A stretch of 64,000 nt of DNA from Flavobacteriales bacterium MED-G22 (lineage in GTDB: Bacteria > Bacteroidota > Bacteroidia > Flavobacteriales > Flavobacteriaceae). Made by a program: the position numbers and the translations under genes. Position 1 is the first letter of the stretch. Every line of letters begins with the position of its first letter. The stretch is taken from positions 1-64,000 of the forward strand of contig NTKF01000001.1 of NCBI GenBank assembly GCA_002457295.1. The letters are read 5' to 3'. The notes beneath the pieces are model-generated. The model made no database searches, was not told the origin of the DNA, and saw only the letters and a program-made list of their open reading frames with translations. This document shows, piece after piece, positions 12,795 through 21,612 of the stretch.

Positions 12795-13988
12795 ATGAAA
12801 TATATAGCCTATGGGATATTTGTTTTTGGGGCTATTCATTTCGCCAAGGCACAAAATCCTTTTCCAATAATTTTAAAACAGTCAGATGACAGATTGAAAA
12901 TGGTCATGCTAAACGAAAAAGAGCATGAATTACAACTAATTTATACTCAAATTAGAAGAAATAAAAAGGGTATACCTAGTTTCAAATCTTACCGATATGG
13001 AAATTCAAAAAGGGATTATTTCTATCCAGCAAGTACAGTAAAATTGCCTTTGGTGCTTTTAACATTAGAAAAAATTAATTCATTAAGAGAAAAGGGCATT
13101 GGAATAGCAAGTGAAACGCCGTTTATTGTTGCAAATCCCGATTCTGAGGTAATCCTAGTTGCTAAAGATAGCACTCACCCAAGGGGTCAACTCTCCTTAG
13201 CACATCAGATAAAGAAATTGTTTTTAGTAAGTGATAATCAAGCGTATAATTTCCTATTTGATTTTTTAGGACAGAATTATATCAATACTACCTTAAAGGA
13301 GAAAGGGTATCAAGACATTCAATTGAATCACAAATTTTCAGGAATACCTCCAATAGAAGAAAAGGCAAGCCTTTATTTTATTGAGGGAAAAGATACACTC
13401 TACACAAAATCAATAAATACACCTCAACCACAAATTCAAAGTTCTAAATTAAAGGGATTATTAAAAGGTAAAGGGGTTATAAAAAAAGGAACACTACTCA
13501 AACAACCTATGAACTTTAGCGCCAAAAATCGAGCCTCATTAGAAGATTTACATCAAATGATGAAAGGAATTATTTTTCCAGAACAAGCTCCAACCAAAAA
13601 TAGATTTAACCTCACTGGTGAAGATCTAAAATTTATTCGCTATTGGATGAGTAGAAAGACAACAGAGGTTGAGGTGCCTAATTATAAAAATGATACCCTT
13701 TATTGGGACAGTTATGTAAAGTTCTTCTTATACGGCGACAAAAAAGGGGAGATGAATCCTGAGGTTCGAATTTATAATAAAGTAGGTTCAGCATATGGCA
13801 CATTAACCGATGTGGCCTTCATTCAAAATGAAAAAGAAGGAATTGAGTTTTTTTTGGCGGCAACAATTTTAGTGAATCAAAATCAAATATTTAATGATGA
13901 TCTATACGAGTATGATACTGTAGGGATTCCCTTTTTAGCTGCTTTAGGAGAAGCTATTTATACTTATGAATTGAAAGAAAAAGATTAG
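12795..13988 (+). CDS. Class A beta-lactamase-like serine hydrolase, secreted
   Basis: A 397-residue exported protein (signal peptide to FAKAQ) of the penicillin-recognising serine hydrolase fold. The catalytic SxxK is S80-T-V-K83 in YPASTVKLPLVL. The SDN motif is S146-D-N148. The third motif is K329-V-G331 instead of KTG. It is about 110 residues longer than ordinary class A lactamases because of an insert between the second and third motifs. Such proteins are often esterases or peptidases rather than resistance enzymes. The start ATG lies 10 bases after the nucleotidyltransferase stop, so it is the last gene of the group. Its end overlaps the convergent oxygenase gene by 4 bases. Confidence 0.75.
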   Translation: MKYIAYGIFVFGAIHFAKAQNPFPIILKQSDDRLKMVMLNEKEHELQLIYTQIRRNKKGIPSFKSYRYGNSKRDYFYPASTVKLPLVLLTLEKINSLREKGIGIASETPFIVANPDSEVILVAKDSTHPRGQLSLAHQIKKLFLVSDNQAYNFLFDFLGQNYINTTLKEKGYQDIQLNHKFSGIPPIEEKASLYFIEGKDTLYTKSINTPQPQIQSSKLKGLLKGKGVIKKGTLLKQPMNFSAKNRASLEDLHQMMKGIIFPEQAPTKNRFNLTGEDLKFIRYWMSRKTTEVEVPNYKNDTLYWDSYVKFFLYGDKKGEMNPEVRIYNKVGSAYGTLTDVAFIQNEKEGIEFFLAATILVNQNQIFNDDLYEYDTVGIPFLAALGEAIYTYELKEKD

Positions 13989-14935
13989 TTTTTTAGTAGA
14001 CCTAATTCATGCAGGCGAAGGGTTAGAAATTGACCTGCAGTAATGTCTTCATATTGTTTAGGATGGGCTTCATCAACACATTGGGGTAGGCAAGTTAAAT
14101 CCATTTCGGGGATAGGATGCATAAAAAAGGGTATCGAATAGCGAGGTTTATCCCAAAACTCCTTCGGTGGATTGACGACTCGGTGCAAGGTTGATTTTAA
14201 TTTATTATTGGTCAATCTGGAAAGCATATCTCCAATATTAATGATAAGGGCATTCTTATCAGCTGACGCCTCAATCCATTCCCCCTGGTGATTTTGAACT
14301 TGAAGCCCACTGCCTTGAGCACCCATCAACAGCGTGATTAAATTGATGTCTCCATGAGCTGCTGCTCTAACGGCTCCTTCTGGTGGACTCGTTATTGGGG
14401 GATAATGAATGGCTCTCAAAATGGAATTACCTCTTTGAACAAATGAATTAAAATAATGATCCTCTAAACCCAAATGAATGGCTAAGGCTTGAAGGACTTT
14501 TAATGCTATTCGCTCTAATTCTTTAAACACTTTCATTCCTACACTATTAAATTCTGGAAGTTCAGTAACAACTATATTAGCAGGATAAGTTTGCTTTAAG
14601 GATTCATCATTGGCTATTTCTTGGCCAAAATGCCAAAACTCTTTTAAATCACCTTTTGACTGACCCTTTGCATGTTCTTTTCCGAAAGCAGTGTACCCTC
14701 TTTGTCCACCTCCACCTTTTATTATATATTGATTTTTTGAAGCTTGTGGAAAAGAAAAAAACTGGCTCACTTGTTCATATAATGCCTGTTGCATATCTGG
14801 TGACAGGCTATGCCCATTTAAAGCAACAAAACCGATAGTTTCAAAAGCATTAGCTAGCGCTTTTACAAAAGTTTCTTTTTTTTCTATAGAGCCACTAACA
14901 AAGTGGCTAAGATCAACTGAAGGAATTTTTTTCAT
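13985..14935 (-). CDS. 2OG-Fe(II) oxygenase, isopenicillin N synthase-like
   Basis: A 316-residue soluble dioxygenase of the isopenicillin N synthase / flavanone hydroxylase class. The iron triad is H194-G-D196 (AAAHGDINLITLL) and H251 (STLHRVVNP). The 2-oxoglutarate anchor is R265-Y-S267. The N-terminal DIOX_N domain is visible as FVKALANAFETIGFVALNGH. The ATG at 14935 is chosen because PSVDLS opens the family right after it. The start codon lies only about 12 bases beyond the T run of a strong terminator, so expression must involve readthrough or an internal start. The substrate is unknown. Confidence 0.85.
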   Translation of the reverse strand: MKKIPSVDLSHFVSGSIEKKETFVKALANAFETIGFVALNGHSLSPDMQQALYEQVSQFFSFPQASKNQYIIKGGGGQRGYTAFGKEHAKGQSKGDLKEFWHFGQEIANDESLKQTYPANIVVTELPEFNSVGMKVFKELERIALKVLQALAIHLGLEDHYFNSFVQRGNSILRAIHYPPITSPPEGAVRAAAHGDINLITLLMGAQGSGLQVQNHQGEWIEASADKNALIINIGDMLSRLTNNKLKSTLHRVVNPPKEFWDKPRYSIPFFMHPIPEMDLTCLPQCVDEAHPKQYEDITAGQFLTLRLHELGLLKN

Positions 14936-14951
14936 TACTAATACAATTAAA

Positions 14952-14977
14952 AAAAGCGAGCCCATCGACTCGCTTTT
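14952..14977 (-). terminator. Intrinsic terminator after the mini-ORF, before the oxygenase gene
   Basis: On the minus strand: AAAAGCGAG, 8-base loop, CTCGCTTTT, then more T's. Nine paired bases with a GC-rich core and a T run make this a textbook factor-independent terminator. It separates the 20-codon mini-gene from the oxygenase ORF, an arrangement like a transcription attenuator. Confidence 0.8.
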
Positions 14978-14986
14978 ATTGCAAAA

Positions 14987-15035
14987 AGGAACCTTAGAAG
15001 GATGCTGTAAAAGGCACCCATAGTCTAAGTTTCCT
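14987..15035 (-). ncRNA. Extended hairpin overlapping the mini-ORF
   Basis: On the minus strand AGGAAACTTAG (15035-15025) can pair with CTAAGGTTCCT (14997-14987) at 10 of 11 positions. Inside it GGGTGC (15019-15014) pairs with GCATCC (15005-15000) over an 8-base loop. The hairpin spans codons 8 to the stop of the mini-ORF and is followed by the terminator, so translation of the mini-ORF would melt it. Confidence 0.5.
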
Positions 15036-15056
15036 TGTATAATTATCACTAGACAT
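14994..15056 (-). CDS. 20-codon mini-ORF with an exceptionally strong Shine-Dalgarno
   Basis: Reads MSSDNYTRKLRLWVPFTASF and stops with TAA at 14994-14996. The start ATG (15056-15054) sits 6 bases after an AGGAGG core that is part of a 13-base match to the complement of the 16S 3' tail. The second half of the ORF lies in a hairpin and a terminator follows 17 bases after the stop. It looks like a leader peptide or regulatory mini-gene rather than a structural protein. I do not know a described family for it. Confidence 0.5.
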   Translation of the reverse strand: MSSDNYTRKLRLWVPFTASF

Positions 15057-15059
15057 ATG

Positions 15060-15072
15060 ACACCTCCTTTCT
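15060..15072 (-). promoter_or_regulatory. 13-base Shine-Dalgarno AGAAAGGAGGTGT
   Basis: The minus strand reads AGAAAGGAGGTGT. This is the exact complement of ACACCTCCTTTCT, the usual 3' end of Bacteroidota 16S rRNA (known from the family; no rRNA gene is in this window). Bacteroidota genes rarely carry a Shine-Dalgarno, because bS21 and partner proteins hold the 16S tail away from mRNA. No other gene in the window has a comparable site. Confidence 0.7.
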
Positions 15073-15142
15073 ACATTAAATTAAACATTGCTGTTGTCAC
15101 AGCGTTAACGATCATAAAATTATAAAAATGTTTTGCTACCAC

Positions 15143-16414
15143 TTAAGATTTCACAATTTTTTTTAGGGTAAGACCTTGAACTAAAATGGTAAACAAGACC
15201 ACACTGTAGGTGAGAATTAAAATAAGATCTTTTCCTTCACCAATACTATCTGGAAGATTTAATGCCAAGGCAACACTGAGGCCACCTCTAAGGCCACCCC
15301 ATGTGATTATTAAGGCTGTTTTTTCTTCAAATTGTTTTTTAATAGAGAGAAGCTTTATAGGTAAAAAGACACCAATTCCTCTAGAGACCACAACAATTAT
15401 GATCACCAAAATAATGATGAAAACATACCCTAGCGCGAAATTTTGAAGGATAGGAATAATCTCTAAACCTATCAGTATAAATAAAATTGCATTTAAAGTT
15501 TCATCTAACAGATGCCAAAATTTATACACATAGTCGCCCATGGCTTTTTGCAAACCTTCTGCCTTTTTATCAGAATCTATGTTTTGATTTAAAAATAGCC
15601 CCATTACGACAACGGCTAAAACAGCTGAAAAATGAAATTGATGAGAAATAAGAGGCGCTAGAAGCACAAGAGAAAGAGTGATGATAACTTCTAATTCTAC
15701 ATGTTCGTTTTCTATATATTTTACCAGCTTCAGTCCTAAAAACCCCATAATTGCTCCTAAGATGACCCCGCCAACAACTTCATTGAGAAACAACAAACTC
15801 ACACTTTGAGGAGTTATGTTTTCAATTCCTTCCAACTTAATACTGAGCAGTGTCAAAAAAACCACAACACCAATACCATCGTTAAAAAGAGATTCACCTG
15901 CAATACGTGTTTCTGTAACCGAAGAAAGATTCATTTTTTTCACCATAGCCAAAACAGCAATTGGATCGGTTGGTGCAATTAGTGCACCAAATAAAAGACA
16001 ATCTACATAAGTTAACCCCATTTCAGTTAGTCCAAAAACAGGTTGCTGTGTGATCCAAAATACGGCAGTCCCAACAGCAAAAGTGGAAAAGATAACTCCA
16101 AAACTAGCCAAAAGTAAAATGACCCATTTATCATTGAGCAATTCATGCACATTCACGCTAATAGCACCTGCGAAAAGTAAAAAGGGGAGCATCACATTGA
16201 TGAGAAGTTCACTAAAATCAAATTGTTGGGTTAGTGAAGTCGCAATGGATAAAAACTCAGGTGAAATGATTCCCACGATCAAAACTATTGCAGAAAGGGC
16301 AATGGCTAACACCATCAAACCAATAGTTAGGGGTAACTTTAAGATCCTTAGATTTATGATCGAAAAAATTGCTGCAAGTGAAATTAGAAATGTGGTTAGT
16401 TCTAAAAGTCCCAT
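15143..16414 (-). CDS. Na+/H+ antiporter, CPA1 (NhaP) type
   Basis: A 423-residue inner-membrane protein with about 12 hydrophobic segments, of the monovalent cation:proton antiporter-1 family. The ion-binding region shows FGALIAPTDPIAVLAMVKK followed by ESLFNDGIGVVVFL, which holds the conserved ND pair. WGGLRGGLSVALAL is the late family signature. It exchanges Na+ (or K+) for protons for pH and salt balance. ATG 16414 is preferred over the TTG one codon earlier. It is next to ribE in the same direction, 24 bases downstream. Confidence 0.92.
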   Translation of the reverse strand: MGLLELTTFLISLAAIFSIINLRILKLPLTIGLMVLAIALSAIVLIVGIISPEFLSIATSLTQQFDFSELLINVMLPFLLFAGAISVNVHELLNDKWVILLLASFGVIFSTFAVGTAVFWITQQPVFGLTEMGLTYVDCLLFGALIAPTDPIAVLAMVKKMNLSSVTETRIAGESLFNDGIGVVVFLTLLSIKLEGIENITPQSVSLLFLNEVVGGVILGAIMGFLGLKLVKYIENEHVELEVIITLSLVLLAPLISHQFHFSAVLAVVVMGLFLNQNIDSDKKAEGLQKAMGDYVYKFWHLLDETLNAILFILIGLEIIPILQNFALGYVFIIILVIIIVVVSRGIGVFLPIKLLSIKKQFEEKTALIITWGGLRGGLSVALALNLPDSIGEGKDLILILTYSVVLFTILVQGLTLKKIVKS

Positions 16415-16438
16415 CAATATAGTTTTTTATTAAATATA

Positions 16439-17032
16439 TTAATTTTTATGTTGAGACTGAAGTTTCGCTATATATTTTCCGATCATATCAAATTCTAGAT
16501 TGACGAGACTACCGACCTCAATTTGGTGGAAATTGGTGTTTTGGTAGGTATAGGGAATTATGGCAACAGAAAATTGCTTGGGTTTAACATCTACTAAGGT
16601 CAAACTCACACCATTAATGGTAATGGATCCTTTTTCTATAAGGAGGTTTCCGGGAAGAGGATCAAAAGTGAAGGTATAGCGCCAACTTCCATCTTCTTCA
16701 ATCACAGAGCTGCATTTTGCAATTTGGTCAACATGTCCTTGTACCATATGTCCGTCAAGACGAGCTCCCGCTACCATGGCTCTTTCTAAATTGATTTTTG
16801 ACCCTATGGCGAGTGTTTTAAAGTTCGTTTTTTCAAGAGTTTCTTTTATGGCTGTTACAGTATAGTGTGTCTCATCACAAGCAACAACTGTCAAACAAAC
16901 GCCATTATGTGCCAAGCTTTGATCAACTTTTAGCTGAGCTGCCATGCTACTCTGCATGATAATAGTGAGATTGCCTCCTTCTTTTTCCAACGATTCGACC
17001 ACACCAAAAGCCTCAATGATTCCTGTAAACAT
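16439..17032 (-). CDS. ribE: Riboflavin synthase, alpha subunit
   Basis: A 197-residue enzyme that dismutates two 6,7-dimethyl-8-ribityllumazine molecules to riboflavin, the last step of the pathway. Two lumazine-binding repeats are seen. The first starts MFTGIIEAFGVVESLE and includes LAHNGVCLTVV. The second includes LDGHMVQGHVDQ and KGSITINGVSLTLVDV. Length is normal. No FMN riboswitch precedes it. It is divergent from pdxA and has a two-part promoter of the Bacteroidota type. Confidence 0.95.
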   Translation of the reverse strand: MFTGIIEAFGVVESLEKEGGNLTIIMQSSMAAQLKVDQSLAHNGVCLTVVACDETHYTVTAIKETLEKTNFKTLAIGSKINLERAMVAGARLDGHMVQGHVDQIAKCSSVIEEDGSWRYTFTFDPLPGNLLIEKGSITINGVSLTLVDVKPKQFSVAIIPYTYQNTNFHQIEVGSLVNLEFDMIGKYIAKLQSQHKN

Positions 17033-17060
17033 CCGCTTATATTTAATTACATTTACACTT

Positions 17061-17094
17061 CAAAAATAGATATTAATAATAGCTTAATGCACAA
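17061..17094 (-). promoter_or_regulatory. ribE promoter, TTG-N23-TATTTTTG
   Basis: Minus strand: TTG at 17094-17092, 23 bases, TATTTTTG at 17068-17061, 28 bases before the ribE ATG. Both elements fit the Bacteroidota TTG-N17-23-TANNTTTG consensus. The -33 element lies inside the start of pdxA. Confidence 0.5.
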
Positions 17095-18103
17095 TACAGG
17101 AAAAATTAAAATTGGCATAAGTATTGGTGATCCAAATGGGATAGGGATAGAGCTATTGCTCAAAGCCTTTGAAGACAAACGCCTCTATGATTTCTTCACT
17201 CCTTTAGTATTTGCTGATTTTGAACTCTTGAAAACAGAGCAAAAAAAATTTTCATTCCAAACGGCATTAAAGCCCATCAAATGGGGAGAAAATCTAAACA
17301 AATCTAAACTCAATGTACTCTCAGTTGCAGCGCAATCTTTTTCTGTTGAATATGGGAAGGTATCTGAAAGTGCGGGGCAATTTGCAATACGATCCTTAGA
17401 GGAAGCAGTCAAGGCACTTCAGAAAAATAAAGTAGATGTACTAGTTACCCTACCCATTCATAAACAAGCCTTTCAGCTTGCTGGCTTTAAATATCCAGGT
17501 CATACGGACTATTTAAACGAAAAGCTACAGGGAGATAGTCTAATGTTTATGGTGCATGAAAATCTAAGAGTAGCCCTCGTAACAGATCATATCCCTATCC
17601 AAAAGGTAGCTCAAGCACTATCTGAAGACCTTTTAAGGCAAAAAATAGATTCCTTACTTAAAAGTCTTAAAGAAGATTTTGGAATAAACAGACCCAAAAT
17701 AGCCCTGTTAGGATTAAATCCGCACACGGGTGATCAGGGGGTTATTGGCACTGAAGATGATGATTTAATTCGTCCAGTAATAAATGCTTATTTTAATAAA
17801 GGGGATTTGGTTTTTGGGCCTTATGCTGCTGATGGTTTTTTTGGTTCAAAACACTACCAAGCTTTTGATGCTGTTTTGGCAATGTATCACGACCAAGGTC
17901 TCATTCCTTTTAAAACACTTGCATTTGGAAGTGGGGTTAATTTTACTGCCGGATTAGAAAAGATCAGAACTTCTCCAGACCATGGCACTGGTTTTGACAT
18001 TGCTGGAAAGAAAAAAGCAGACCGAAGTTCTTTTATTGAAGCTCTATTTTTAGCTCGAAAAGTATATGCAAATCGCTCCGAAATGCATCAGGAAGAAGTT
18101 TAA
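17087..18103 (+). CDS. pdxA: 4-hydroxythreonine-4-phosphate dehydrogenase
   Basis: A 338-residue NAD-dependent enzyme of the DXP-dependent pyridoxal phosphate pathway; it oxidises 4-phosphohydroxy-L-threonine. Signatures: ISIGDPNGIGIELLLKAF at the N-terminus, the metal-binding GHTDYLNE, LGLNPHTGDQG, MYHDQGLIPFK and the C-terminal TSPDHGTGFDIAG. All are in the usual order and the length is normal. It converges with the downstream sulfatase gene with a 4-base overlap. Confidence 0.95.
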   Translation: MHNTGKIKIGISIGDPNGIGIELLLKAFEDKRLYDFFTPLVFADFELLKTEQKKFSFQTALKPIKWGENLNKSKLNVLSVAAQSFSVEYGKVSESAGQFAIRSLEEAVKALQKNKVDVLVTLPIHKQAFQLAGFKYPGHTDYLNEKLQGDSLMFMVHENLRVALVTDHIPIQKVAQALSEDLLRQKIDSLLKSLKEDFGINRPKIALLGLNPHTGDQGVIGTEDDDLIRPVINAYFNKGDLVFGPYAADGFFGSKHYQAFDAVLAMYHDQGLIPFKTLAFGSGVNFTAGLEKIRTSPDHGTGFDIAGKKKADRSSFIEALFLARKVYANRSEMHQEEV

Positions 18104-19707
18104 TCTAATTCCAGAATTTCACTTGTGTTATATCCTATTCGAACGGCTTTAACTTTGATAGGACTCGTTTTGGTTAGAGGTTGGTCATAAATAGACCAGA
18201 CACTATCTCCTTCTTTTTGCCAGATAATCGTACTACCTGCGTTTTGATGCTTTAGCACAATTCGATTGTCAACAATTTGATAGCTTGGGGGAAAAAGTTT
18301 AGGGGGGTTTCCATCTGGAAAAAATTGCTTTAAAATTTCCTGTTCAGGCAAGGCCCCTAAATCACCTGTTTCCTTCATCCATTGTTCTAGTTTGTTGCGC
18401 AACATTGAAAGTGTATCCTTTAATGTTGGGTTTGCTGCCAAATTATTTAGCTCATAAGGATCCACAGTAATGTCATAAAGTTCTTCTTCTGGTTTTGGCG
18501 TAGCAAACCACCTAGCTGCTGCCTCAGGCAAGGTCTTTGCCTCCCATTGCTCGCGCATATTTTGCATCATAGCCATTTGTTCTCTGTAGGCTACTGGCAA
18601 AGCGTTTGAAATCTCTACATTGAAATTCCGAATGTATTTGTAATTACCATAACGAACAGCTCTTAATCGATCTACTTTTTCATCATAACGATCAGAGGTT
18701 GTAAAGACAAATGAAGGAGCTTCAGTTTTATATTTCCCTAAAAAAGCTTTCCCTTGCATAATTTTGGGAGGTTCAATACCCACAAAAGAAAGTATGGAAG
18801 GGGCATAATCAATAAAACTTACCAAACGGCTTTCTTGACTTCCTGCATTTGTATTTTGAGGCATTTTAACTACTAAAGGAACTCTGATACCTGTTTCGTA
18901 AAGTGCTCGCTTGTGTCTTGGAAAAGGGCCACCATGATCTCCATAAAAGAAAATCAGTGTATTGTCATATTGACCAGTAGCCTTCAATTCATCAATAATT
19001 ACTCCTATTTGCTGATCGAGACGCATCAGATTGGAATAATTGACCGCTAAATCTTTTCGAATTATTGAATTGTCAGGAAAAATAGGCGGAACCGTCAAAC
19101 TATTAGGATCTACTAATAGAGGTTGATCTGCCTGTCTCCAAATTTGTGATTCATGGGTAATTTGAAAATTAAAAACAGCAAAAAAAGGAGCCCCTTTGGG
19201 CCGATTACGCCAGTGTGCTTCTTTACTACTTTCATCCCACGCGGAAGGGAGGGGTTTGAAATTATAATCTTCCTTAGGATTATTTGTACAATAATACCCA
19301 GCAGTTCTTAAATATTCTGTAAACATTTTAACGCCCTCAGGGACAACGGGTGAATACGATGGAATATTAATGGAGGGCTCATTAAAATCTTTATAGCCAT
19401 TATAGGTGCGCATATTGTGGGTGCCCATAGTGCTAGGATACATTCCAGTTATAAGTGCACTTCTAGAAGGGGCACAAACTGGCACAGGGGCATATGCGTT
19501 TGTATAAAGCACGCCATCTTTAGTAAGTTGTTCTATGTTAGGTAGTGAAACAAATTTATTGCCATACATCGGGAAATGCTCTGGTGATTGGTCTTCCGCA
19601 ACCAACCAAACAATATTTGGTAAGGTAGAAGAAGCCTCGGAATGCTTATTATCACAAGAAATAAAGACAAAGTATAAGACAACATAGATACCAATAAATA
19701 TACGCAT
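18100..19707 (-). CDS. Sulfatase (S1 family), lipoprotein
   Basis: A 535-residue sulfatase anchored as a lipoprotein (FVFISCDNKHSEA). The first metal-binding segment is NIVWLVAEDQSPEH with an E-D pair in place of D-D. The maturation site is CAPSRSALITGMYP with Cys 78 and Arg 82. FFYGDHGGPFPRHKR holds the later ligands. It differs clearly from the 7664-9067 sulfatase in length, N-terminus and insertions, so the two probably act on different sulfate positions. The last ~80 residues form an extra domain (IILKQFFPDGNPPK region) typical of longer Bacteroidota sulfatases. The substrate is unknown. Confidence 0.9.
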   Translation of the reverse strand: MRIFIGIYVVLYFVFISCDNKHSEASSTLPNIVWLVAEDQSPEHFPMYGNKFVSLPNIEQLTKDGVLYTNAYAPVPVCAPSRSALITGMYPSTMGTHNMRTYNGYKDFNEPSINIPSYSPVVPEGVKMFTEYLRTAGYYCTNNPKEDYNFKPLPSAWDESSKEAHWRNRPKGAPFFAVFNFQITHESQIWRQADQPLLVDPNSLTVPPIFPDNSIIRKDLAVNYSNLMRLDQQIGVIIDELKATGQYDNTLIFFYGDHGGPFPRHKRALYETGIRVPLVVKMPQNTNAGSQESRLVSFIDYAPSILSFVGIEPPKIMQGKAFLGKYKTEAPSFVFTTSDRYDEKVDRLRAVRYGNYKYIRNFNVEISNALPVAYREQMAMMQNMREQWEAKTLPEAAARWFATPKPEEELYDITVDPYELNNLAANPTLKDTLSMLRNKLEQWMKETGDLGALPEQEILKQFFPDGNPPKLFPPSYQIVDNRIVLKHQNAGSTIIWQKEGDSVWSIYDQPLTKTSPIKVKAVRIGYNTSEILELD

Positions 19708-19750
19708 AGAACTACAGGTGTTAAAACAACCGAATATACCTTTTTTTTTA

Positions 19751-19758
19751 TAAATTTG
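19751..19758 (+). promoter_or_regulatory. Candidate -7 box TAAATTTG for the yceD-rpmF-fabH-accBC cluster
   Basis: Exact TANNTTTG match 18 bases before the ATG at 19777, after a run of T's. It makes the upstream TTG at 19756 (inside the box) an unlikely start. Confidence 0.45.
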
Positions 19759-19776
19759 CCCACCAATTGTCTTAGG

Positions 19777-20295
19777 ATGGAAAAGTTGGATGAGTTTGAT
19801 ATTCCCTTTGTAGGTTTAAAAAATGGCATACACCAATTTGTTTTTATCCTTGACAATACGTTCTTTGAAGGTTTTGATTTTAATGATTTCCATCAAGCTG
19901 ATTTCAAAGTAGAACTTGCACTCCACAAAAGTGAAAGTCTCTTGGAACTGGAGTTTACCTCAAAAGGAAGCGTGGGCGTTTCCTGCGATGTGACCACAGA
20001 ATACTTTGATTTAGCATTAAACCCTAGCTGGTCTCAAATAATTAAATTTGGAAATCCTGAGGCTTCCACAGATGAAATTTTAGTTTTGCCGGTAGGAGCC
20101 TACAAGTTCAACGTTTCTCAACAAATATATGAGATGATTGTCTTAGAGATTCCACCAAAATTAGAGCATCCAGGAATTGCAAACGGTACATTACAATCAG
20201 AAATTCTTGACAAACTCAAAACCCTAGAACCAAAAGCAACCCCTGTTGAAGGTCAAAATGACCCCAGATGGGACAAACTGAAAGATTTATTATAG
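19777..20295 (+). CDS. DUF177 / YceD family protein
   Basis: A 172-residue protein of the YceD/DUF177 family, the standard neighbour of rpmF in bacteria and linked to 23S rRNA metabolism. It has the family's strand-rich middle (LLELEFTSKGSVGVSCDVTTEYFDLAL) and the acidic, C-terminal PRWDKLKDLL that nearly all members share. The start ATG 19777 gives MEKLDEFDIPF. rpmF follows after 13 bases. Confidence 0.88.
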   Translation: MEKLDEFDIPFVGLKNGIHQFVFILDNTFFEGFDFNDFHQADFKVELALHKSESLLELEFTSKGSVGVSCDVTTEYFDLALNPSWSQIIKFGNPEASTDEILVLPVGAYKFNVSQQIYEMIVLEIPPKLEHPGIANGTLQSEILDKLKTLEPKATPVEGQNDPRWDKLKDLL

Positions 20296-20308
20296 AAAAT
20301 ATTAGTTC

Positions 20309-20503
20309 ATGGCACATCCTAAAAGAAAAATTTCGAGAACTCGAAGAGACAAAAGAAGAACCCACTACAAAGCAAGCAATAGGCAAGTAGCCAATTGTGG
20401 GACTACAGGGGAAGCTCACTTGTATCATCGTGCTCACTGGCATGAAGGAAAACTCTATTACAGAGGAAAAGTTCTCATAGACGCTACCGAAGTAGAAGCA
20501 TAG
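20309..20503 (+). CDS. rpmF: 50S ribosomal protein bL32
   Basis: A 64-residue ribosomal protein with the usual [22 protein letters not shown]-terminus of bL32. The zinc-binding cysteines of other phyla are mostly absent (one Cys, in [14 protein letters not shown]), as is normal for Bacteroidota. It lies between yceD and fabH as in many bacteria. Confidence 0.97.
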
Positions 20504-20628
20504 TCTTTAGCAAATAAGGCTCTATAAAGGGGCTAAATTTATGAGATTTACTCATTTAATGGGAAGTAGTTTTCTCACTATTCAACACAAAATCATAGTT
20601 AATCCCTGCCTTAAAAGCGGACAGAAAT

Positions 20629-21612
20629 ATGGTTAAAGCGGCTATAACGGGGGTTGGAGGGTATGTTCCTGAAACTATTTTAAGTAACAAGGACTTAGAA
20701 CAAATGGTAGATACCACCGATGAGTGGATCCTATCTCGCACTGGAATAAAAGAGCGCCGCATTCTCAAAGAACCCTATCAAGGCTGCTCTACGCTAGCTG
20801 TACGTGCTGCTCAAGATTTAATAGAAAAAAAAGGGATTGATCCAAAATCAATTGATTTGGTTCTTATAGCTACCATTACGCCTGACTATCAGGTGGCCGC
20901 AACAGCCGCCTATGTTGCTTCATCTATTGGGGCAACGAATGCATTTGCCTTTGACTTAAGTGCTGCGTGCTCAGGGTTTTTATATGGCATGAGTGTGGCA
21001 ACTGGGTATATCCAGAGCGGACGATATAATCGGGTTTTATTTATTGGTGCTGATAAAATGTCATCTATAGTCAATTATAAAGACAGAACCACCTGTATCA
21101 TTTTTGGAGATGGAGCAGGAGCTGTACTAATTGAGCCCTCAACAAATCAATACGGTTGGGAAGATGAATATTTTAGATCTAATGGAGCGGCAAGAGAATC
21201 ACTTTTAATTAAAGGTGGAGGTTCAATTTTTCCAACCTCACAGTCCACACTTGATCAAGGATGGCACAATTTATATCAAGATGGAAAAACAGTTTTTAAA
21301 TACGCAGTTTCCGAAATGACAGCATCAACCCAAAAAATTATAGAACGCAATCACTTATCGAGTGAAGAAATTAATTACCTTGTACCTCACCAAGCGAATA
21401 AACGAATCATAGATGCAACAGCTAAACAGTTAGGTCTTGCAGAAGATAAGGTTTTAATGAATATTGAACGCTACGGAAATACAACTGCGGCCACCATCCC
21501 GCTCCTCTTATATGACTATGAACAGCAGTTAGCCTGCGGTGACAAAATCCTTTTTGCCGCCTTTGGTGGAGGTTTTACTTGGGGCGCTGCCTACCTAACA
21601 TGGGCTTATTAA
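20629..21612 (+). CDS. fabH: Beta-ketoacyl-ACP synthase III
   Basis: A 327-residue condensing enzyme that starts fatty-acid synthesis from acyl-CoA and malonyl-ACP. The catalytic triad is visible: Cys 114 in DLSAACSGFLYG, His in VPHQANKRI, Asn in ERYGNTTAATIP. The N-terminal TTDEWILSRTGIKERR is typical. It is followed by accB after 21 bases. The 125-base gap before it shows no clear promoter. Confidence 0.95.
   Translation: MVKAAITGVGGYVPETILSNKDLEQMVDTTDEWILSRTGIKERRILKEPYQGCSTLAVRAAQDLIEKKGIDPKSIDLVLIATITPDYQVAATAAYVASSIGATNAFAFDLSAACSGFLYGMSVATGYIQSGRYNRVLFIGADKMSSIVNYKDRTTCIIFGDGAGAVLIEPSTNQYGWEDEYFRSNGAARESLLIKGGGSIFPTSQSTLDQGWHNLYQDGKTVFKYAVSEMTASTQKIIERNHLSSEEINYLVPHQANKRIIDATAKQLGLAEDKVLMNIERYGNTTAATIPLLLYDYEQQLACGDKILFAAFGGGFTWGAAYLTWAY

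Follow-up and report, generated by a model that had tools for sequence, protein, structure and literature searches.

A putative small mRNA gene with an extended Shine-Dalgarno sequence, conserved alongside rpsU in a clade of marine Flavobacteriaceae

The 30S subunits of the phylum hide the tail of 16S rRNA under bS21, bS18 and bS6. According to PMC9976891, the rpsU gene of Flavobacteriales carries an extended Shine-Dalgarno (SD) sequence and is autoregulated by ribosomes that lack bS21, and loss of bS21 raises the translation of strong-SD reporters in F. johnsoniae. Here we describe a second short locus, referred to below as the mini-gene, which resembles rpsU as characterised in that report in that the pairing of its SD with 16S rRNA is worth about -17 to -22 kcal/mol, and the two are found in the same nine genomes. 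The rpsU gene encodes bS21, whereas the mini-gene would encode a peptide of 20-21 residues that is not bS21; it also differs in having its SD within a predicted hairpin, in its conserved 5' hairpin and terminator loop, and in the higher cost of opening the SD.

A class of small mRNAs is known in which the SD is covered by intramolecular pairing. The SD of the mini-gene can likewise pair, by prediction, with a segment behind its ORF, although it is 10-13 nt long and lies in a phylum that otherwise avoids SDs. The mini-gene can also be compared with short flavobacterial transcription units, such as the Flavo-1 motif, which has an entry in Rfam, and the transcripts Rfp1-89. The latter, independent short transcripts of F. 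psychrophilum, are typically without coding potential as described in part of PMC9723704. Both Rfp1-89 and Flavo-1 are set apart from the mini-gene here by such a description. Leader-peptide attenuators similarly consist of a mini-ORF and an intrinsic terminator just before a gene, an arrangement seen in 18/22 copies of the mini-gene, but in the remaining 4/22 the unit is kept without that gene, and inspection by eye revealed no terminator/antiterminator switch.

Among the open-access PMC papers that our searches returned, none describes such a mini-gene in its title or in the opening of its abstract. The earlier screen for extended SDs counted genes, and an unannotated 20-codon ORF would therefore presumably have escaped it. 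The group has been thought to use extended SDs for one gene only, and the conservation described below points to a second such site kept by selection. What the comparisons support best is that a small mRNA gene bearing an extended SD is probably conserved alongside rpsU in a marine Flavobacteriaceae clade.

The extended SD and its pairing with 16S rRNA

The window, by which we mean the whole 64-kb stretch of DNA analysed, carries the following features, listed in the direction of transcription.

15143..16417, minus strand: nhaP, encoding an NhaP-type cation:proton antiporter (PF00999); upstream in 21/22 copies
15115..15122, minus strand: candidate -7 promoter box TAATTTTA; imperfect, 12 nt before the hairpin
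15090..15103, minus strand: 5' hairpin GCTGT-GACA-ACAGC; stem pairs changed on both sides, loop conserved
15060..15072, minus strand: extended SD AGAAAGGAGGTGT; complementary over 13 nt to the 3' end of flavobacterial 16S rRNA
14994..15056, minus strand: 20-codon ORF and stop (MSSDNYTRKLRLWVPFTASF); an ORF of 20-21 codons in 22/22 copies
14980..14991, minus strand: segment TTCCTTTTTGCA; can pair with TGTAGAAAGGAG (15075-15064), covering the SD
14952..14977, minus strand: intrinsic terminator, an 11-bp stem followed by a T run; covarying stem, loop CGATGG at 14967-14962
13985..14935, minus strand: gene for an isopenicillin N synthase-like 2-oxoglutarate/Fe dioxygenase (PF14226+PF03171), which starts 13 nt past the T run

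The basic geometry had been proposed in a sequence-only reading of this DNA, and it holds in the window sequence: the purine run AGAAAGGAGGTGT occupies 15072-15060 on the minus strand, its GGAGG lies 6 nt from an ATG at 15056, and this ATG opens a frame of 20 codons that ends with a TAA at 14996-14994. The terminator, the 5' hairpin, the segment able to pair with the SD and the conservation are additions to that reading. The 3' end of 16S rRNA reads GGAACACCTCCTTTCT in G143 (L227) and in two 16S copies of G677. The latter also has a homologue of the mini-gene and is the one genome among nine with homologues in which the 16S end was read, the other eight giving no match. Since the complement of this common tail is AGAAAGGAGGTGT(T), the SD match spans 13 nt. 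A genome of the same order, G573, has the altered 16S core ACATCTCATTTT, which resembles the alternative core that PMC9976891 describes in some Flavobacteriales.

The window contains the 12-mer AGAAAGGAGGTG a single time, against a first-order Markov expectation of 0.009 occurrences, or 0.0008 with an ATG 3-7 nt later. The further claim that the site is unique among the genes of the window is thus correct for exact matches, but it fails once up to two mismatches are allowed, when seven more sites appear and the total of eight compares with a chance mean of 5.8.

Duplex energies, calculated with ViennaRNA duplexfold (another program was used in PMC9976891), range from -17.1 to -21.9 kcal/mol in 22/22 copies of the mini-gene and are below the -13 criterion of the rpsU type. 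In the nine genomes whose homologues were found by pattern search (see below), rpsU is a separate gene that also bears an extended SD, and the 16S duplex of the mini-gene is the stronger of the two (-21.8 to -21.9 versus -18.4 to -21.0 kcal/mol). Opening the SD is predicted to cost 3.6-10.6 kcal/mol in the mini-gene and 0.5-4.9 kcal/mol in the nine rpsU leaders. The net balance of duplex minus opening is -7.1 to -17.6 over the 22 copies of the mini-gene, and within the same nine genomes it is -14.7 to -17.2 as against -15.0 to -20.1 for rpsU, so that in these predictions rpsU generally matches or exceeds the mini-gene once the opening cost is taken off.

Distribution and conservation of the unit

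A search for the pattern AGAAAGGAGGTGT, 2-8 nt, ATG in 397 genomes from the family of G003 (a Robiginitalea MAG) returned 15 sites in 15 genomes. Nine of these (L236, L239-L246) are homologues of the whole unit, and the others are rpsU (L247), a 41-codon basic ORF (L235), a 337-codon ORF (L211) and three sites of accidental look (L237, L238 and L248). A covariance model built from the nine copies and the window, which did not demand an SD, gave three matches of at least 139 bits among 60 relatives of G701 (G701, G157 and G040), only that in G040 being new. All other matches in this set, in 22 genomes, scored at most 41.5 bits; they were left uncounted (22 of the 24 genomes with any match, G040 itself among them), and the four inspected owe their score mainly to the terminator. 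In the genus of G699 the model matched 12/14 genomes, all at 155 bits or more and 11 of them new, while G769 and G778 (1.2 and 1.5 Mb, perhaps incomplete) had no match at E 1e-6. The 21 homologues and the window make up 22 copies, 12 of which came from the model without an SD requirement, and the homologues apparently belong to one Flavobacteriaceae clade.

The model gave nothing above 20.5 bits at 80 loci of dioxygenase relatives (61-65% identity) and seven nhaP loci, and SD-like sites at the 80 loci, of which the first 40 had their upstream regions inspected, open no similar mini-ORF. The best nhaP identity in 395 genomes of the order was 48%. A codon-specific pattern proved too strict (0/299 matches), a peptide-pattern scan of viral contigs had no matches, and comparison of the element with plasmids and phages gave short matches only, with E-values of 0.6-0.7. 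Rfam returned no match above the gathering threshold in the window and nine homologue loci, and in E-value mode only weak hits over 451 bases, each under its gathering score. The closest relatives of the dioxygenase are sequences of metagenome source (99, 91, 88, 75% and lower). Tara Oceans entries and MAGs named Flavobacteriaceae bacterium are among the close relatives of nhaP. A mobile element (MITE) was considered and dropped, as the window holds a single copy and each of 15 true-match genomes has one strong match.

Whether the SD and the ATG are conserved in close relatives had been named beforehand as a point on which the sequence-only reading should be judged. Both are: the core GAAAGGAGG with an ATG 5-6 nt further on is present in 22/22 copies. 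The full 13-nt SD is kept in 13/22 copies, and in three of the 12 found by the model, the other nine deviating somewhere within it; the exact complement of the 16S tail measures 13 nt in 13 copies, 12 nt in five, 11 nt in two and 10 nt in two. Over the 21 copies other than L308, the pairwise difference is 0.056 in the SD block versus 0.671 at 4-fold sites of nhaP, which are saturated. The corresponding values are 0.000 for the CGAUGG loop of the terminator, 0.077 for the UCCUUAUCU segment, 0.173 for the 5' hairpin, 0.189 for codons 2-9, 0.463 for the later part of the ORF and 0.808 for the bases after the stop. The nine pattern-found copies have the SD by construction, and the comparison was therefore repeated on the 12 model-found copies, giving 0.106 for the SD block, 0.000 for its core, 0.044 for the segment and 0.000 for the loop, although the model still rewards SD-like sequence. 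An effect of the cut-off is unlikely because no matches fall between 41.5 and 139 bits. These comparisons show the unit, the SD core, the start codon, the ORF length, the 5' hairpin and the terminator loop to be conserved in the 22 copies.

Transcription and the neighbouring dioxygenase gene

A TAnnTTTG box is located 15-17 nt before the CUGUGACA of the hairpin in 21/22 copies, the window being the copy with a poor box (TAATTTTA at 12 nt). In F. psychrophilum the box spans -12 to -5 according to PMC9723704, from which the RNA would start about 12 nt before the hairpin. The predicted unit is about 165 nt long and comprises the promoter box, the 5' hairpin (CUGUGACAACAG, common to the copies), the extended SD (10-13 nt), the ORF of 20-21 codons, the UCCUUAUCU segment and the terminator. 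In all nine pattern-found homologues the unit follows nhaP, and ribE lies upstream of that gene; the unit of L308 comes directly after ribE, nhaP being absent there. Positions 13985-21612 of the window are syntenic with the homologue loci, ribE, pdxA, a 179-codon gene and fabH being found in most of L249-L257, and identity to the window is higher for nhaP (72-84%) than for the dioxygenase (58-63%).

The dioxygenase gene follows the unit in 18/22 copies, and the mini-ORF and terminator might form an attenuator in its leader, with translation from the extended SD setting the frequency of read-through. By eye, across 17 loci and the window, 15 of the 18 dioxygenase genes start no more than 20 nt past the T run, and L242 alone was seen to have a TAnnTTTG box in the interval. 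Of 80 dioxygenase genes from relatives that lack the element (L001-L080), 66 have a TAnnTTT[GC] box within 70 nt of the start, most often at about 19-25 nt, against a base rate of 7.2%. Because the box is rare in the clade and common in these relatives, the dioxygenase of the clade probably receives transcripts that cross the terminator, and its expression would then depend on transcription through it. What weighs against an attenuator is that L243-L246 retain the whole unit, with no dioxygenase found in their stretches (the 13-kb loci L254-L257); the units of L243 and L244, and probably that of L246, face a convergent gene instead. These four group with L236, which does have the dioxygenase (support 0.994 for the five, inner order left open), and one loss or gain may therefore explain them all. 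The terminator stem, moreover, varies without matching changes in the ORF, and no conserved antiterminator was seen by eye in the 22-copy alignment. We consider control of the dioxygenase by attenuation a possible but doubtful function of the unit.

Mini-ORF, RNA structure and possible functions

The ORF has 20 codons in 16 copies and 21 in six, its stop following codon 20 or 21 in 22/22 with TAA, TAG and TGA all in use, whereas the +1 frame closes within 16 codons in 20/22 copies and the +2 frame within four codons in all. Indels inside the ORF are of 3 nt in the alignments and surrounding ones often are not, and the length is kept despite differences of 46% in the later part of the ORF and 81% among the bases that follow the stop. 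A frame that stays open for 20-21 codons in every copy makes a translated mini-gene likely. The peptide consensus is roughly M(S/F)Y(D/E)NHLRN.RQQ(V/I)PT.GPL. A coding signature in the form of synonymous changes, which the sequence-only reading had looked to, emerges only weakly: pN/pS is 0.68 over the ORF, where the null median is 0.90 and 2/60 column shuffles reach so low a value, and 1.11 when codons 2-9 are taken alone, suggesting weak amino-acid constraint. Since the peptide sequence is loosely kept, the act of translation or the RNA is favoured over the product. A K-L-R motif of the stalling type was considered in the window peptide and set aside, as it is not conserved across the copies.

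At the RNA level, both partners have changed in six of ten pairs of the terminator stem, around a CGAUGG loop that is invariant in 22/22 copies. A scan of the window and nine 13-kb loci found 20 terminator-like hairpins (it missed the element of L250); the loop is present in nine, all of them this element, and absent from the other 11. A plain terminator would not usually combine an invariant loop with a covarying stem. Folding of 14935-15080 gives -44.3 kcal/mol (z -4.2), and 14978-15078, without the terminator, has a z of -2.6. In the structure of the whole model 96.0% of cells pair, with a covariation of 0.271 versus 0.170 for shuffled and at most 0.098 for slid partners, figures that are favoured because the alignment was fitted to the structure. 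When the hairpin and terminator are left aside, 94.8% pair versus 92.9% in shuffles, covariation is 0.191 versus 0.150 and there are four doubly changed pairs versus 2.4 (61/500 shuffles as high); for these three inner helices one structure slid by one column has five such pairs against four.

The segment behind the ORF reads TCCTTATCT in 20/21 homologues, and at 4-9 nt past the stop the sequence is CCUUAUCU in 20 copies, the exceptions being L311 (ACUUAUCU) and the window (CCUUUUUGC). The helix of the SD with UCCUUAUCU is almost invariant, and covariation therefore gives no proof of pairing, but the segment of the window differs and is still predicted to pair with the SD (0.95), one case that favours the helix. 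The mean predicted pairing probability of SD and segment is at least 0.5 in 10/22 copies and only 0.01-0.13 in five (L239, L245, L309, L310 and L312). Counting all partners, predicted coverage of the SD core has a mean of 0.78, slightly above the 0.68 of shuffled ORFs, and in 9/22 copies, the window included, at most 4/40 shuffles match it. These predictions weakly favour covering of the SD by the UCCUUAUCU segment.

A noncoding RNA, in which the purine run would be a sponge for the 16S tail or one arm of a stem and the ORF incidental, could explain why RNA-level conservation exceeds that of the peptide, why codons 2-9 are without amino-acid constraint and why the CGAUGG loop, absent from the 11 other terminator-like hairpins, is invariant. 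It is nevertheless improbable in view of the start codon and open frame to codon 20 or 21 in every copy, the early closure of the other two frames, the 3-nt indels and an SD spacing held at 5-6 nt. On balance the locus appears to be a small protein-coding gene of its own, with an mRNA of about 165 nt bounded by a promoter and a terminator, and a peptide of 20-21 residues whose translation starts from an extended SD; the unit persists without the dioxygenase (4/22 copies) and without nhaP (L308).

If the SD of this small gene folds back onto the conserved segment behind the ORF, as predicted, translation would need a strong competitor for the SD. As 30S subunits of the phylum hide the 16S tail under bS21, bS18 and bS6, the mini-gene should favour subunits with a free tail, and by analogy with rpsU its mRNA would be translated best by those that are bS21-poor or immature. 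In that case it would join rpsU as the second member of a set of extended-SD genes. The sequence-only reading had proposed preferential use by ribosomes lacking bS21, with reporting of ribosome state or titration of 30S tails as the outcome; these proposals would draw on the F. johnsoniae work on rpsU (PMC9976891). We tentatively suggest that the unit may act as a sensor of ribosome state, in which a covered 13-nt SD is opened only by free-tail 30S subunits and translation reports bS21 shortage or assembly defects; the output could be the peptide, the occupation of free-tail subunits or altered transcription into the dioxygenase gene. Were bS21-poor ribosomes to translate the mini-gene, specialised bacterial ribosomes would have more than one client, and the clade would offer a compact natural reporter for free 16S tails. 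A true sensor would extend SD-dependent control in Flavobacteriaceae from rpsU alone to a small regulon.

The 12-mer pattern occurs at 16 sites in 16 of the 391 genomes that sample the order of G020 (a Flavobacteriaceae MAG), eight being rpsU and the rest mixed. Purine-rich runs before chance ORFs do arise, as five of the eight non-rpsU sites open ORFs of at most 11 codons, but it is scarcely credible that the mini-gene is such an accident, given 22 structured copies, 21 of them beside nhaP, at saturated synonymous divergence. Another route to chance look-alikes is illustrated by L224, where the purine run apparently lies within a terminator-like hairpin; this was rejected for the mini-gene unit, in which SD and terminator are separate. 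Both L224 and L226 have AGAAAGGAGGTGGGC...ATG before what is seemingly the same gene in two genomes. In L212 (G651:C1, minus strand, SD 1519-1507) a 32-codon ORF (MRRKFPKWGKTLLSKVVLKIVSFILDNYNDFF) stands behind AGAAAGGAGGTGT and is directly followed by a terminator-like hairpin, and the purine run is at the same time coding sequence for a 45-codon ORF that overlaps in a different frame. The 337-codon ORF of L211 (G143:C1), behind AGAAAGGAGGTGTTTTTTATG, might belong to mobile DNA with foreign translation signals, though this is a guess. The 41-codon ORF of L235 (G161:C1), which encodes a basic small protein (MAKDSEGRKYNRIPGYTKKVGGKTIKVKPHVRSNRSDSKGK) behind AGAAAGGAGGTGT, is a possible extended-SD gene.
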